From positions 1 to 64,000 of the forward strand of contig JADHXQ010000002.1 of the NCBI GenBank assembly GCA_016782885.1: DNA of 64,000 nt. Direction: 5' to 3'. Below, piece by piece: positions 2,857 to 11,976 of the stretch. Numbering within the stretch: position 1 is the stretch's first letter; every line of letters begins with the position of its first letter. The translations under genes were made by a program, and so were the position numbers. The DNA comes from Phycisphaerae bacterium. Its GTDB lineage: Bacteria > Planctomycetota > Phycisphaerae > SM23-33. The notes below the pieces were generated by a model. It did not search any database and was not told the DNA's origin. It saw only the letters and a list, made by a program, of their open reading frames with translations.

Positions 2857-4611
2857 ATGAACAGGTACAAACGTCCGGCAAGCTGCAATCTTGCGATAAT
2901 TGTCGCCATAGGACTGCTTTCGGCGGCCGCGAGCGGGGAAGTGAAGTTCAGGAAGATCGTGGTCGACACGTCCTTTCGGTCTGAAGGAGTTGCCACCGGC
3001 GACGTCAATCACGACGGTAAGCTCGACATCTTCGCCGGGGATTTCTGGTACGAGGCGCCGCAATGGAAACCTCACGAACTCCATGCCGTCAGGAAGTACA
3101 ATCCATCCAAGGGATACAGCAAGTGCTTCGCTAATTTCTCCGACGACGTCAACGGCGACGGGTGGATCGATTCTATCGTGATCGAAGGATGGAGCAATTG
3201 TCCGGCGAAGTGGTACGAGAACCCCCAAGGCAAACCCGGCCACTGGAAAGAGCACCTGATAACCAAGTCCGCGGGCAACGAAACGCCCCTGTATGGCGAC
3301 CTGCTGGGTTCGGGCAAACCGGTGGCGATATTTTCCGCGAACAGGAAGGTCTCCTGGTACGCCCCGCCGCGTAACTCGAAGGCAACCGAATGGGCCAGGC
3401 ACGATGTAAACTCCGCCAAAGACGCCCATGTAGCCACCGGACATACTTTCGGCTTCGGCGACGTCAACGGCGACGGGCGCCGCGACATCCTCACCGCCAA
3501 AGGCTGGCTCGAGGCCCCCGAAGATCGCACGCGGCGCGATTGGACCTTACACAAAGTGGACTTCGGCGACCGCAGCGCAAACCTGATCACGCACGATTTC
3601 GACGGCGACGGCGACGCCGACGTGCTGTCGAGTTCCGCGCACGGATACGGGATATGGTGGCACGAGCAGATCAAGTCCGACGGTGAGGCCACCTGGAAAA
3701 GACACGAGATATTCAAGGAATTCTCGCAGACGCACGCGATTATCCTGGCCGACATGAACGGCGACGGGCGGATGGACTTCGTCACGGGCAAGCGGTATTT
3801 CGCACACAACGGCAGGGACCCAGGCGGAAAGGAACCGGTGGTGCTCTACTGGTTCGAGCGGACCGGACCGAAAAAAGGAGCCCCGAAGTTCATCCCGCAC
3901 AAGATCGAAGGCGGCACGGGCGTGGGCACGCAGTTTGAAGTCGTCGACATGAACGGCGACAAGCGCCTCGATATCGTTATCTCCAACAAGAAAGGCGTTC
4001 ACGTGTTCATGCAGACCGCCGGAGCACCCGCGGCGCCCGCGGGAAAAGCGATCGCCCTGTTCGACGGTAAGACTTTCGACGGATGGGAAGGCAATCTGAA
4101 AGCCTTCCGGATCGAGGACGGCGCGATCGTCGGCGGGGGGCTAAAAGAGCGAGTCGCGCGAAACGAGTTCCTCTGCACGAAGAAGCGTTACGCGGACTTC
4201 GAACTTCGCCTCAAGTGCAAGCTCGTGGGCAAGGGCGCCAACGCGGGCATCCAGTTCCGCACCGAGCGGATACCCAACCACCACGAGGTCTCAGGCTACC
4301 AGGCCGACATGGGCGGAAGGAACAATTTCTACTGGGGAGCGCTGTACGACGAGTCGCGCCGCCGAAAGATACTCGCAAAACCCGACAAGGCGACACTGGC
4401 CAAGGCGCTTAAAGAAAACGAGTGGACCGAGTACGTTATCCGCTGTGTCGGGCCGAAGATTCAACTCTTCCTCAACGGCGTGAAGACCGTGGACTACACC
4501 GAAGGCAACGCAAAAATCGCCCGAACCGGTATCATCGGACTGCAGATCCACGGCGGAGGGCCCACCGAAGCGTGGTACAAGGACATCACGATCAAGGTTC
4601 TTGGACAGTAG
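2857..4611 (+). CDS. FG-GAP repeat protein with C-terminal DUF1080 (3-keto-disaccharide hydrolase) domain
   Basis: Exported protein of 584 residues. After a signal peptide there are six FG-GAP/VCBS-type calcium-binding repeats (DVNHDGKLD, DVNGDGWID, DVNGDGRRD, DFDGDGDAD, DMNGDGRMD, DMNGDKRLD), which should form a beta-propeller over about residues 20-385. The last 190 residues, from IALFDGKTFDGWEG, are a DUF1080 concanavalin-like domain; some members hydrolyse 3-keto-glycosides, others probably bind glycans. The start at 2857 has AAGGAG seven bases upstream; an in-frame ATG at 2836 lacks this. It is divergent from the ThuA-like gene and convergent with prfB. The role in exported saccharide processing is inferred. 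Confidence 0.88.
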   Translation: MNRYKRPASCNLAIIVAIGLLSAAASGEVKFRKIVVDTSFRSEGVATGDVNHDGKLDIFAGDFWYEAPQWKPHELHAVRKYNPSKGYSKCFANFSDDVNGDGWIDSIVIEGWSNCPAKWYENPQGKPGHWKEHLITKSAGNETPLYGDLLGSGKPVAIFSANRKVSWYAPPRNSKATEWARHDVNSAKDAHVATGHTFGFGDVNGDGRRDILTAKGWLEAPEDRTRRDWTLHKVDFGDRSANLITHDFDGDGDADVLSSSAHGYGIWWHEQIKSDGEATWKRHEIFKEFSQTHAIILADMNGDGRMDFVTGKRYFAHNGRDPGGKEPVVLYWFERTGPKKGAPKFIPHKIEGGTGVGTQFEVVDMNGDKRLDIVISNKKGVHVFMQTAGAPAAPAGKAIALFDGKTFDGWEGNLKAFRIEDGAIVGGGLKERVARNEFLCTKKRYADFELRLKCKLVGKGANAGIQFRTERIPNHHEVSGYQADMGGRNNFYWGALYDESRRRKILAKPDKATLAKALKENEWTEYVIRCVGPKIQLFLNGVKTVDYTEGNAKIARTGIIGLQIHGGGPTEAWYKDITIKVLGQ

Positions 4612-6947: not shown

Positions 6948-8399
6948 ATGAACATGGAAGCAAGCGGTCCGGGCAGGCGGGATTTCATAAGGGCCGCCGG
7001 TCTGACCGTCGGCGCCGCGTCAATACATGGACTACTCCATGCCGCCGAGACCCGCGCCAGGAAAACGACAGGTCCCAATGTTGTATTCGTACTGGCAGAC
7101 CAGTGGCGCCGGCAGGCTGCCGGATACAGCGGCGACCCGAACGCCCTGACGCCGAATCTGGACAAACTCGCCGCCCGGAGCGTCAATCTCACGAACGCGG
7201 TTTCCACTTGTCCGGTATGCTCTCCGTATCGCGCGAGCCTGCTTACGGGGCAGTACCCGCTGACTCATGGCGTGTTTCTCAACGACGTGTGCCTCTCGCC
7301 CAAGGGCGCCACGCTGGCGGAGGCCTACGCACACGCCGGGTACGATACGGCATACATTGGCAAGTGGCACCTCGATGGGCACGGGAGGGCTTCGTATATA
7401 CCCAGAGAGCGGCGCCACGGGTTTGACTATTGGAAGGTCCTGGAGTGTACGCATAATTACAACCGGTCGTTCTACTACGCCGCGGACAGTAAGACCAGAC
7501 TCACGTGGTCCGGATACGACGTCCGGGCGCAGACTGACGACGCAAGGGCCTACATTCGCACCCGCGCCTCGGGGTCCAAGCCGTTTATCCTCGTCCTGTC
7601 ATTTGGCCCGCCGCACAACCCGTATCAAACCGCTCCGAAGAAATACCGCGAGTTGTACAATGACAAGAAACTCAAGCTCCGGGAAAATGTTCCGCCCTCC
7701 GCTCGGGGCAGGGCCCGCAAGGACCTTGCCGGTTACTACGCGCACATCTCGGCTTTGGACGCCTGTGTCGGCGACCTTCTGGACACCATCGACAAGGCCG
7801 GTATATCCGACAATACGATATTCGTCTTTACTTCGGATCACGGCGACATGCTGGGCTCCCGGGGCATGAGCAGAAAGCAGAAGCCCTGGGACGAGTCGAT
7901 CATGGTTCCATTCCTGCTGCGATATCCCGCCGCGAAGCCCAGGGCCATCGATATGCCGATCAGCACCCCTGACATCATGCCGACGCTGTTGGGGTTGAGC
8001 GGGATAAAGATTCCCAAGAGCGTTGAGGGTGTCGATTATTCCGGTGTATTGTCGGGCAGGGACCAACCGTCAAACGATGCCGCACTGATCATGTGTCCAT
8101 CGCCGTTTGGCGAGTGGTTCAGAGGGAAGGGTCGCGAGTTCCGGGGCATACGTACGCGGCGGTACACGTACGTTCGCGATCTCAAGGGTCCGTGGTTGCT
8201 CTACGACAATCAGCAGGATCCTTATCAGTTAAACAATCTCGCGGGCAAGGACGATTCCGCCGACCTGCAGAAACGGCTCGATTCACTGCTGGCCGGTAAA
8301 CTCCAGGCCGCCGGCGACGATTTCCTGCCCGGGACGAAGTACATCGACAAGTGGGGCTACAAGGTTAATTCACGCGGAACGGTTCCCTATACCAACTGA
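6948..8399 (+). CDS. Sulfatase, Tat-exported
   Basis: Exported S1-family sulfatase of 483 residues. It has a twin-arginine signal (PGRRDFIRAAG), a metal-site start NVVFVLADQW, and the formylglycine motif CSPYR with cysteine at residue 91 followed by ASLLTGQYP. GKWHLDGHG and FTSDHGDMLGS supply further active-site residues. An in-frame GTG at 6945 immediately precedes ATG 6948; I prefer the ATG, with GGAG about ten bases upstream. The C-terminal region contains YDNQQDPYQLNNLAG, the typical family end. It probably forms a unit with the aldo/keto reductase. Immediately downstream lies the hairpin-rich region at 8417. Confidence 0.93.
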   Translation: MNMEASGPGRRDFIRAAGLTVGAASIHGLLHAAETRARKTTGPNVVFVLADQWRRQAAGYSGDPNALTPNLDKLAARSVNLTNAVSTCPVCSPYRASLLTGQYPLTHGVFLNDVCLSPKGATLAEAYAHAGYDTAYIGKWHLDGHGRASYIPRERRHGFDYWKVLECTHNYNRSFYYAADSKTRLTWSGYDVRAQTDDARAYIRTRASGSKPFILVLSFGPPHNPYQTAPKKYRELYNDKKLKLRENVPPSARGRARKDLAGYYAHISALDACVGDLLDTIDKAGISDNTIFVFTSDHGDMLGSRGMSRKQKPWDESIMVPFLLRYPAAKPRAIDMPISTPDIMPTLLGLSGIKIPKSVEGVDYSGVLSGRDQPSNDAALIMCPSPFGEWFRGKGREFRGIRTRRYTYVRDLKGPWLLYDNQQDPYQLNNLAGKDDSADLQKRLDSLLAGKLQAAGDDFLPGTKYIDKWGYKVNSRGTVPYTN

Positions 8400-8416
8400 A
8401 GTGAGCGCAAAAAAAT

Positions 8417-8570
8417 GGCGACGCCCAGGTGGAGGGAGACCTAGACGTCGCCCAAAGCCGCATCCCTGATATGCAGGTGGAGGGAGACCTACATGCAATG
8501 GGGTGCAGCGGACAACCAATATCATGTCGGTCTATTTGGGCCAAAGCCCAACGACCCGGATAGACTATGA
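8417..8570 (+). ncRNA. Candidate structured RNA with paired GGAGGGAG-loop hairpins
   Basis: Hairpin 1 (8417-8452) has stem GGCGACG/CGTCGCC, then an inner AGGT/ACCT stem and loop GGAGGGAG (8431-8438). Hairpin 2 (8470-8495) has an outer TATG/CATG stem with the same inner stem and loop. Both share an identical 18-nt core (8426-8443 and 8474-8491), including a C.A mismatch just below the inner stem, while their outer stems differ in sequence yet still pair. Hairpin 3 (about 8522-8570) has contiguous GTCTAT and TTGGGC pairing with GCCCAA and ATAGAC. It begins 18 bases after the sulfatase stop, so it could be a 3' UTR or a separate RNA. No Rfam family is recognised; the strand is inferred from the purine-rich loops. 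Confidence 0.45.
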
Positions 8571-8740
8571 CCTAAAATAACCCAAACAGCATTATAACTC
8601 GGTGTTTGCGGCCTGCAAGCGTTAACCGATTTTTCTGATATTTTTTTGATTGTTCTCTTTCGCGACTAATATGCGAATCGGATGCCATTAACAACAATCC
8701 CGCTAGCAACTCGACCGCCGCGGGAGCGATGGCTGGCTGC

Positions 8741-8778
8741 TTGAGGCGCCCACCGGTGGTCGACCGGGGGCGCCTCAA
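8741..8778. terminator. Long GC-rich hairpin downstream of nrdJ
   Basis: TTGAGGCGCCC (8741-8751) pairs perfectly with GGGCGCCTCAA (8768-8778). After a one-base bulge, CCGGT (8753-8757) pairs with ACCGG (8763-8767) around a five-base loop. There is no T tract on either side, so termination is plausible but unproven. The rest of 8571-8871 shows nothing else recognisable. Confidence 0.4.
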
Positions 8779-8871
8779 TCCATGCCATGCAACTGACACC
8801 CCTCCCTGGGCGCCATACCATTACCATCGGAGCGGGAAACCGAAATCAAAACCCGTCTCCGTCCGGGATGT

Positions 8872-11800
8872 TCAACTGCAACCCAGCGACGTTCCGCAGT
8901 TGAAGCACTTATAACAATTACCGTTTCGAACCGTCAGCGATCCGCAGACATCGCACGCCGGAGCATCTTCCTGGAAGTGCTCGAACTGGCGATCGACTCG
9001 CTCGCTGCTTGCCAGGGGACGCTGAGGCGACGAGACCATCGCCAACCGAAGCGATGTCTGACCCCTCGTGCTCGCGGGCGCATCGGTTGGGTCGCCTGCC
9101 GCCCTCCCGACCGGGGCGTATCCGCTATCGATGTTGATAAGTGCGTCGGCGGGCCCGGGGACATCCTTGTCCAGGGCCTTGCCGACGCGGCCGGGTTCCG
9201 AGGGTGCGTCATCCTTGACAGCCTCGGGCGCTATTGCCTTGGCTGTTGAGTCAGTTGTTTCGGTGTCAGCATTGTTTGGCGAGTTGCCGCGTTTGGGGAG
9301 ATGTTTATTGCGGTATTCCTCGCCGAGGAACTGCAGACCAAGCCAGCGGAAGATGTAGTCGACGATGCTCTTGGCCATGGGGATATCGCGGTTGTCAGTC
9401 ATACCGTGGGGATCGAACCGCTGGTGGGAGAATTTCTTTACGAGGCTTTCGAGCGGTACGCCGTACTGCAGACAGAGGCTGAGGGCTGTGGCGAACGTAT
9501 CCATCATTCCACCGACGGTGGAGCCTTCTTTTGACATGCTGATGAACAGTTCGCCCGGCGTCCCATCTTCGTAGAGACCGACGCTGAGGTATCCCTCATG
9601 CCTTGCGACCGAGAACTTGTGTGTGATTGACGGGCGGGTCGCGGGCAGGCGGCGCCGATGGGGCTTGCGCCTTGCGGCGTCAAGTTGCTCGGCGCTGATA
9701 CTGGTCGCCTCGGCCTGGCGGTTGTTGTGATTGCGTTTCGCGGCGTCCTTTGAAACGTTCAGCGGTTGGATGCGTTTCGAACCGTCACGGTATATCGCCA
9801 CTGCTTTGAGTCCAAGCTTCCAGGCGTCGGTGTAAACTTCCCTGACATCCTCAATGGTGGCTTCGTTGGGTATGTTTACGGTCTTCGAGATAGCGCCGGA
9901 TATGAATGACTGGGCCGCTCCCATCATGCGGATATGGCCCATGTAGTGGATGCATCGCTGCCCGTTTGCGGGCTTGAAGGCGCAGTCGAATACCGGCAGA
10001 TGCTCGTCTTTGAGTCCGGGGGCTCCCTCGATTGTGTCGTACTGGTTGATATACGTCAGTATTCCGTCGATTGTTTCGGCTTCGTAGCCGAGTCGCCGCA
10101 AGGCCAGCGAGACGGTCTGGTTGATGATCTTGAATATTCCGCCACCGGCCAGTTGTTTGTACTTGACCAGCGCGATATCCGGTTCGATACCGGTGGTGTC
10201 GCAGTCCATCATGAAACCGATAGTTCCCGTGGGCGCCAACACGGAAACCTGGGCGTTGCGGTAACCGAACTTCTTACCGGCGGTCAGCGCTTGAGCCCAG
10301 GAATCCCGTGCCGACTCTAACAGGGCGAAGGGACAATGATCGCTATCGATTTCTTCAACGGCCAACTGGTGCATCTCCATGACCTTGAGCATGGATTCGC
10401 GGTTCCGATCGAATACGGGAAACGTCCCGAGGCATTCGGCCAGTTCAGCGCTTGCGGTATAGGCCGACGCGGTGAGCACTGCGGTAATCGCCGCCGCCGT
10501 CGCACGGCCCTTGTCGCTGTCATAGGGCAGTCCCAGCGACATCAGCAGTGCGCCTAAGTTCGCGTAACCCAGCCCCAGGGGGCGGTAGTTATGGCTGTTG
10601 GTGCAGATCCTCTCGCCCGGATAACTCGCGCTGTCGACGAGTATTTCCTGGGCTATGATAAACACCCTGGCCGCAGCGGCCAGACGGGCGGTGTCTATCG
10701 AACCGTCTTTGCGGCGGAACTTCATCAGGTTCAGGCTGGCAAGATTGCATGCCGAATCGTTAAGGAACATGTACTCGCTGCACGGATTGGAAGCACATAT
10801 CTCACCATCTTCCGCGCAGGTATGCCACTTGTTAATGGTCGTATGATACTGGATGCCCGGGTCGCCGCAGACGTGCGTGCCCTCGGCGATCAGATCCAGC
10901 AGTTCGGTTGCCCGATAGTTCACTGACTTCTTGCCCGTGGTGACCTCGTGTGTCTGCCACATCCCATCGTCTATTGCGGCGTCCATGAATTCATCGGTGA
11001 CCCTTATCGACAGGTTGGCGTTCTGGTACATCACAGAGGCATATGCTTCACCGTTGAACGAACCGTCGTATCCCTGTTCGATCAGCGCCCATGCCTTGCG
11101 CTCTTCGACCATCTTGCACTCGATGAATTCTTTGATATCCGGATGATCGCATCGCAGAGACTGCATCTTGGCGGCGCGGCGAGTCTTACCGCCCGAGCGG
11201 ACGACGGCGGCGATCTGATCGAATATCCGCATGAAACTCAGCGGGCCCGAAGGCGTGCCTCCGCCCGAGAGGGTCTCGCGGCTCGAACGCAGCGTCGAGA
11301 GGTCCGTGCCCGTGCCCGAACCGTACTTGAACAGCATCGCTTCGTCCTGGGCCAGGCGCATGATGTCTTCCATCGTGTCGTCGACGGACTGGATGAAGCA
11401 TGCCGACGCCTGAGGGTATTCGTAGCTTCTCATCGTACGTTCGGGCCGATCGGTTTCGCCGTCCCAGTGGTAGTTGCCTTCAGAGCCATTAACGCCGTAT
11501 TGATGAAACAGCCCGACGTTGAACCATACCGGCGAGTTGAATGCGCCGTACTGGTTGACGCACAGGTACGTCAGTTCGTTGTAGAATCGCTCGGCGTCTT
11601 CATCGTCGGCGAAGATACCGCCGGACTTACCGAGGTCGGTGATGGTTCGCGTGACGCGATTGACCAAGTCGCGAATCGAGTTTTCGCGCTCGGGCGAACC
11701 GTTTTCGCCATAGAAGTATTTGCTGACGACAACAGTGGTGGCCAGTTGGCTCCAGTTGGATGGTGTTTCGATGTCCGTCTGCTCAAAGATGGTCTCGCCC

Positions 11801-11976
11801 TGGTCGTCAGTGATATGTGCCGAGCGTTTTTCCCAGGTTATCTCGTCAAACGGGTGTGTGCCGGGAGTAGAGAATACCTGGGGAACCTTCAGCCCCTTGC
11901 TCGTGGCTTGTACAGATACCTCTGAGCTTTTCAAGCCGCCCGAAGAGCTTGTTGAGTCCTGGTGCGTCATCGCCAC
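8872..11976 (-). CDS. nrdJ: Vitamin B12-dependent ribonucleoside-diphosphate reductase (class II)
   Basis: Makes deoxyribonucleotides from ribonucleotides using adenosylcobalamin, independent of oxygen. The protein has 1034 residues. The catalytic loop NPCSEYMFLNDSACNLASLN contains the Asn-x-Cys-x-Glu active site, and substrate-site segments such as YGSGTGTDLSTLRSS and APTGTIGFMMDCDT are present. The C-terminus ends in a zinc-ribbon-like tail with CDVCGS...CYKCFNCG, as in other NrdJ proteins. There is a low-complexity linker near residue 900-960. No intein is seen. The gene stands alone, reading away from the EIIA gene. Two NrdR-box-like palindromes lie in the upstream gap; I found no cobalamin riboswitch core there. 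Confidence 0.97.
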   Translation of the reverse strand: MAMTHQDSTSSSGGLKSSEVSVQATSKGLKVPQVFSTPGTHPFDEITWEKRSAHITDDQGETIFEQTDIETPSNWSQLATTVVVSKYFYGENGSPERENSIRDLVNRVTRTITDLGKSGGIFADDEDAERFYNELTYLCVNQYGAFNSPVWFNVGLFHQYGVNGSEGNYHWDGETDRPERTMRSYEYPQASACFIQSVDDTMEDIMRLAQDEAMLFKYGSGTGTDLSTLRSSRETLSGGGTPSGPLSFMRIFDQIAAVVRSGGKTRRAAKMQSLRCDHPDIKEFIECKMVEERKAWALIEQGYDGSFNGEAYASVMYQNANLSIRVTDEFMDAAIDDGMWQTHEVTTGKKSVNYRATELLDLIAEGTHVCGDPGIQYHTTINKWHTCAEDGEICASNPCSEYMFLNDSACNLASLNLMKFRRKDGSIDTARLAAAARVFIIAQEILVDSASYPGERICTNSHNYRPLGLGYANLGALLMSLGLPYDSDKGRATAAAITAVLTASAYTASAELAECLGTFPVFDRNRESMLKVMEMHQLAVEEIDSDHCPFALLESARDSWAQALTAGKKFGYRNAQVSVLAPTGTIGFMMDCDTTGIEPDIALVKYKQLAGGGIFKIINQTVSLALRRLGYEAETIDGILTYINQYDTIEGAPGLKDEHLPVFDCAFKPANGQRCIHYMGHIRMMGAAQSFISGAISKTVNIPNEATIEDVREVYTDAWKLGLKAVAIYRDGSKRIQPLNVSKDAAKRNHNNRQAEATSISAEQLDAARRKPHRRRLPATRPSITHKFSVARHEGYLSVGLYEDGTPGELFISMSKEGSTVGGMMDTFATALSLCLQYGVPLESLVKKFSHQRFDPHGMTDNRDIPMAKSIVDYIFRWLGLQFLGEEYRNKHLPKRGNSPNNADTETTDSTAKAIAPEAVKDDAPSEPGRVGKALDKDVPGPADALINIDSGYAPVGRAAGDPTDAPASTRGQTSLRLAMVSSPQRPLASSERVDRQFEHFQEDAPACDVCGSLTVRNGNCYKCFNCGTSLGCS

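Follow-up and report, generated by a model that had tools for sequence, protein, structure and literature searches.

A predicted small RNA with two identical C-rich loops near nrdJ across one uncultured order of Planctomycetota

Genomic setting

The window analysed here is a stretch of 64,000 nucleotides from a Phycisphaerae bacterium (contig JADHXQ010000002.1), which we take to belong to the order named SM23-33 in GTDB. A sulfatase gene has its stop codon at 8399 and next to it lies a conserved core RNA of about 108 nt, in which a stem, P1, is formed around a first hairpin (A) and is followed by a linker, a terminator hairpin (B) and a U-tract (Table 1). The first-pass annotation of this DNA had placed a structured block just after the sulfatase stop and in front of a convergent nrdJ gene; both the stop and the placement of nrdJ hold good, nrdJ being upstream of the RNA and co-directional with it once the RNA is read on its true, minus strand. 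It had also reported two neighbouring hairpins with an identical 18-nt core, and this core, CAGGTGGAGGGAGACCTA, is indeed present twice exactly (8426-8443 and 8474-8491), with both copies able to fold; allowing up to 3 mismatches, 0.04 matches would be expected and none of 100 shuffles gave two.

Table 1. Features of the RNA locus and its surroundings, in window coordinates
Feature	Position	Strand	Evidence or remark
U7 tract of terminator	8409..8415	-	sequence
Predicted sRNA core	8409..8516	-	R1 match of 108 bits, E 4.4e-26 in own genome
Hairpin B, 14 bp, loop CUCCCUCC at 8431-8438	8417..8452	-	93.3% of cells paired
P1 3' arm GGGAUGCGGC, one bulged base	8457..8466	-	covariation analysis
Hairpin A, 8 bp, loop CUCCCUCC at 8479-8486	8471..8494	-	97.6% of cells paired
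P1 5' arm GCUGCACCC	8501..8509	-	pairs with 8457-8466; 94.2% of cells paired
5' extension (interval from TATAAT to core)	8517..8590	-	window's genus only (three genomes); conserved pairing weakly supported
Candidate -10 box TATAAT	8591..8596	-	score p=0.08 for the window copy
Upstream motif TAACG-N17-CCGA	8599..8624	-	fixed spacing
Candidate -35 box TTGCAG	8613..8618	-	16 nt from -10 box
nrdJ, class II ribonucleotide reductase	8872..11976 (11976 -> 8872)	-	ORF; named by the first-pass annotation and by resemblance

Structure and covariation

The claim of a structured RNA with covariation is well borne out, the signal being strong both within and between genomes. Covarying homologues are present: 20 of the 31 pairs have changed on both sides, which happened in none of 500 shuffles, and all five measures of covariation exceeded those of all 500 shuffles and of all slid controls. 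P1, in which GCUGCACCC pairs with GGGnUGCGGC, encloses hairpin A and shows changes on both sides at six of its nine pairs. Hairpin B and the U7 tract are together predicted to be an intrinsic terminator; no other terminator-like site occurs in 8380-8900, and the 10 nt that follow hairpin B have a mean of 6.8 T among 46 copies. Among the 48 best-scoring copies, in which the stems vary, CUCCCUCC is the sequence of loop A in 44 copies and of loop B in 45. These counts come from matches unfiltered for CUCCCUCC, but the model behind the matches derives from copies chosen for that loop; lower-scoring matches have the related C-rich loops UUCCCUCC, CCCCCUCC and CUCCCCCC. Two traits of the class of redundant anti-SD-loop sRNAs are present here, namely identical C-rich loops complementary to the Shine-Dalgarno (SD) sequence on variable stems and an intrinsic terminator on the same strand.

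The start of the RNA in the window's genus is ambiguous, lying near 8584 or near 8520. The 5' extension may form a hairpin, and there may be an alternate start near a GATATT box. A third, composite hairpin described by the first-pass annotation maps to about 8525-8575, inside this genus-only extension of three genomes, where there is little evidence of conserved pairing, and is outside the conserved core.

Strand assignment

Pairing counts, the terminator, folding and the promoter-like sites all point to the minus strand as the one from which the RNA is predicted to be read. Over 31 pairs and 46 copies, standard pairs occupy 94.7% of cells on the minus strand as against 83.3% on the plus strand, and the 178 G.U cells set against 16 A.C cells favour the minus strand likewise. 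The block folds at -51.2 kcal/mol (z -5.9) on the minus strand, where the MFE fold is the same as the comparative structure, and at -42.2 kcal/mol (z -3.6) on the plus strand. Several earlier claims fall with this assignment. The 'C.A mismatch' that the twin hairpins were said to share is an effect of reading the wrong strand; the minus strand has a G.U wobble at that place. The exposed GGAGG loop is the plus-strand view of loops that read CUCCCUCC, the SD complement, and the suggested pairing with anti-Shine-Dalgarno-like sequences is likewise unsupported. Nor do the minus-strand loops contain the GGA motif by which a CsrA-binding sponge RNA of the RsmZ/CsrB type would be recognised, and the proposed binding of CsrA-like proteins is not supported. 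An RNA of the plus strand offering GGAGG loops to such proteins or to anti-SD-like sequences is very improbable: CsrA is encoded in 33 of the 38 genomes of the order and the plus strand, too, folds better than shuffles, but its mismatches are A.C rather than G.U throughout, and terminator, U-tract and promoter-like sites are all on the minus strand. The plus-strand reading was rejected on the G.U and A.C counts and the terminator.

Distribution across genomes

A DNA search with 8395-8600 matched 36 of 60 relatives. Of the 35 genomes in the family to which the window belongs, its own among them, 33 were matched; in another family of the order all three genomes were matched, and no match came from the 22 genomes that belong to other families of the class. 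The matches mostly span the two hairpins and the GGGTGCAGC arm, and the sequences aligned well. The covariance model R1 matches all 38 genomes of the order and finds the full form in 36, the matches in G005 and G028 being weak; it gave no match at E<=1e-4 under stricter filters in the 359 further genomes sampled from the class, and a single weak one (G552, E 1.9e-5) elsewhere in the phylum sample of 392 genomes. A stricter pattern of loop, 3' arm and T-tract occurs in 33 of the 38 genomes of the order, in two of the 359 others and, among the matches listed, in none of the controls. When a two-loop pattern was sought in 84,980 species genomes, the matches apart from two loci (L098 and L104) were confined to MAGs labelled Planctomycetota, Phycisphaerae, Phycisphaerales or Planctomycetales (e.g. 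Phycisphaerae bacterium SM23_33). Neither of those two loci was accepted as a homologue: L098 is by its look an unrelated repeat and L104 is an Oscillospiraceae contig in which the GTCTCCCTCCACCCGGAGGGAGTGGATTGAAAT repeats of 343-1770 look like a CRISPR array. The L104 repeat contains the loop motif by chance.

The number of R1 matches per genome, from one to six, is what a REP-like or other mobile repeat might also give, but against such an origin stand the fixed synteny with nrdJ across the order, the divergence of paralogues to 72-80% identity, the virtual restriction to one order and the absence of any match in viral contigs, and it is hardly credible. A mobile element was rejected on the conserved synteny with nrdJ.

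Promoter-like sites and linkage to nrdJ

The evidence for promoters is uneven, many copies being without a good sigma-70 site. Scores for a TATAAT-type promoter reach p<=0.05 against shuffles in 14 of 46 copies, and the p-values deviate from uniform (KS 8e-8) in a set of copies that are related to each other. The motif TAA[AC]G-N17-CCGA is found at 13 loci, the window and upstream of 12 other copies, as compared with 0.0015 expected per sequence by base shuffling, these loci again being related; it could be an alternative-sigma promoter (it is faintly sigma-28-like) or a regulator site. In some copies it overlaps TATAAT and in others it occurs without TATAAT.

In 32 of 36 genomes nrdJ is followed on its own strand by the RNA, at a distance of 132-716 nt. 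Among the exceptions, G022, G031 and G025 have just 33, 1 and 532 nt of sequence upstream of the main copy, and G008 appears to be a true exception, because its nrdJ is on another contig. There is no detectable nrdJ and no full RNA in G005 and G028, the latter being only about 75% complete. The CUCCCUCC loop was not found downstream of nrdJ in other orders where downstream sequence existed, which was not everywhere.

Such a linkage might also be expected of a cis-acting element of the nrdJ 3' UTR, one that terminates and stabilises the nrdJ transcript and whose C-rich loops serve that transcript alone, for instance as a site for a protein or for the nrdJ leader, there being no trans-acting targets. 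The want of a clear promoter in many copies and of recurrent trans targets (see below) is in keeping with this, as is the origin of the CcsR RNAs in Rhodobacter, which are released from a 3' UTR by cutting (PMC8625941). We nevertheless consider it unlikely, on the grounds that full copies away from nrdJ (L049, L051, L055 and others) keep both loops and the terminator, that promoter-like sites lie directly upstream of some copies and that a plain terminator requires neither P1 nor invariant loops. The second full copies at L049, L051 and L055 (about position 4050) come from three genomes of the genus and have as a neighbour, at about 55-85 nt, a gene named by eye as glutamyl-tRNA synthetase-like; they are regarded as a separate conserved locus because they share an upstream block of their own (ACAGGACACTTGG...TATAAT) and the synthetase-like neighbour.

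Proposed mode of action and candidate targets

The reading preferred here, with a probability of roughly 65%, is that of a trans-acting, Hfq-independent sRNA whose redundant anti-Shine-Dalgarno loops would repress translation. Positions 8409-8516 of the minus strand, possibly from near 8584, would encode a small non-coding RNA ending at the intrinsic terminator. It would be transcribed from its own promoter and/or cut out of the nrdJ transcript, and could therefore couple deoxynucleotide supply to the translation of a set of genes, perhaps including nrdJ itself. The same 8-nt loop is found on both hairpins and each molecule would therefore have two equivalent seeds, which may pair with purine-rich SD sequences (GGAGGGAG, GGGAGA, GGAGG); CUCCCUCC complements GGAGGGAG, contains the complements of GGGAG and GGAGG and, with the preceding U, complements GGGAGA. 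Loops that are identical and hardly change, on stems that vary freely, are the signature of a seed. Hfq was not detected in the 38 genomes of the order, controls being positive, and it is because of the seed-like loops, the precedents of NfeR1 and LhrC and the lack of a detected Hfq that pairing of the loops with mRNA ribosome-binding sites without Hfq is proposed, by which translation initiation would be blocked. Transcription, SD pairing and repression we infer from sequence.

Sites of the form GGAGGGAG-N3-9-ATG are about twice as frequent as in the reversed control, and the 85 such sites examined, 41 of them with an ORF of at least 60 aa, included just one homologous pair; the genes bearing full 8-nt target sites were not the same from one genome to the next. 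The leaders of nrdJ often carry GGGAG, and loop pairing with them averages -9.2 kcal/mol vs -8.0 kcal/mol for other SD leaders, a small gap to which no significance test was applied, so that the data are suggestive of nrdJ as a candidate target only. An enrichment of GGAG was all that could be learnt from a survey of SD k-mers, which was dominated by repeated orthologues, and a 16S gene, from which the anti-SD tail might be read, was not found in the window's assembly.

A protein dimer would be well served, too, by two identical loops that hardly vary and are closed by constant GG/CC pairs, and it might be supposed that the C-rich loops are sites for an RNA-binding protein, the RNA being a sponge or scaffold that pairs with no mRNA. 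This is decidedly unlikely, since no candidate protein was identified and known RNAs with equivalent C-rich loops work by SD pairing.

Comparison with known RNAs

That the RNA belongs to no Rfam family, as the first-pass annotation had it, is upheld: there was no match at the gathering threshold anywhere in the window, and at E<=10 there were just sub-threshold CcsR1, ftsZ-DE and chance families, CcsR1 being the only match among alpha-r14-type families. CcsR1 (RF02791, conserved CCUCCUCCC motif stress-induced RNA 1) is the closest model, full-length and on the same strand at 8413-8516, but the RNA is not a member because it scores 16.9 bits (E 0.14) against a gathering score of 65.3; its loops read CUCCCUCC, and the CCUCCUCCC motif is absent. 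CcsR1-4 of Rhodobacter are, like the window RNA, C-rich sRNAs downstream of a protein gene, but they carry the CCUCCUCCC motif and are processed from the 3' UTR of ccaF1, a gene for a small RNA-binding protein, and not of nrdJ (PMC8625941).

The alpha-r14/NfeR1 RNAs of the Rhizobiales (SmelA075), as portrayed in the parts of the sources drawn on here, are similar in that the same ultraconserved anti-SD loop recurs on several hairpins with highly variable stems (PMC10746234, PMC3927594), and their identical CCUCCUCCC loops act redundantly, silencing mRNAs at ribosome-binding sites (PMC10746234). They differ in being alphaproteobacterial and in carrying CCUCCUCCC in the loops of three hairpins, where the window RNA has two conserved hairpins with CUCCCUCC loops, and those parts of the sources describe no enclosing P1. 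LhrC1-5 of Listeria and the UCCC-motif sRNAs (RsaE, RNAIII, FsrA) are comparable in being multicopy, about 111-114 nt long and equipped with redundant CU-rich seeds. In the portion of the source used here, the seeds of LhrC lie in loop A and the terminator loop, as in the window RNA; its CU-rich sites, terminator loop included, block translation, and Hfq is dispensable for the action on lapB (PMC4132741). LhrC differs in coming from another phylum and in having an extra single-stranded seed, an enclosing P1 is not described in that portion, and its family gave no Rfam match here. If the inference is right, the window RNA would work like alpha-r14/NfeR1, CcsR and LhrC; common descent with them is not indicated.

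No description of the RNA was found in the literature searched, and this predicted small RNA, which follows nrdJ closely in nearly all genomes of a single uncultured order of planctomycetes, is one not previously listed. Beyond the well-studied phyla catalogues of sRNAs are sparse: eight are given for the whole PVC group in a survey of Rfam sRNAs from 2022 (PMC9029176). An RNA that is kept across an entire uncultured order of Planctomycetota in which Hfq went undetected, and that is tied to a gene of deoxynucleotide synthesis, is a defined candidate for Hfq-independent riboregulation, and the recurrence of its design in Rhizobiales, Rhodobacter and Listeria makes a case for multi-seed anti-Shine-Dalgarno RNAs having evolved convergently. 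A new Rfam family could be proposed on the basis of model R1 and alignment A2. A fuller account, which is possible but doubtful, would have a new order-wide sRNA family of Planctomycetota, independent of the alphaproteobacterial and Firmicutes anti-SD-loop sRNAs in origin and free of Hfq, in which the terminator loop serves as one of the two redundant seeds and nrdJ expression is linked by feedback to the translation of a regulon that includes nrdJ, with other copies diversified into C-rich-loop terminator sRNAs.

Related short RNAs

Beyond this RNA, R1 detects other short RNAs whose terminator hairpins carry C-rich loops, and several of these RNAs have near-consensus promoters (e.g. TTGACA and TATAAT in L080). 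Three similar terminator RNAs with C-rich loops are clustered at L064:5946-6426 in the relative G011. A second group of short RNAs, at about position 2050 in L079, L080, L081 and L082, starts with GGCTCCTCGG and has two C-rich loops, with TTGAC/TATAAT promoter-like sites in L080 and L081. This GGCTCCTCGG group is the sole type of R1 match in both genomes without a detectable nrdJ.
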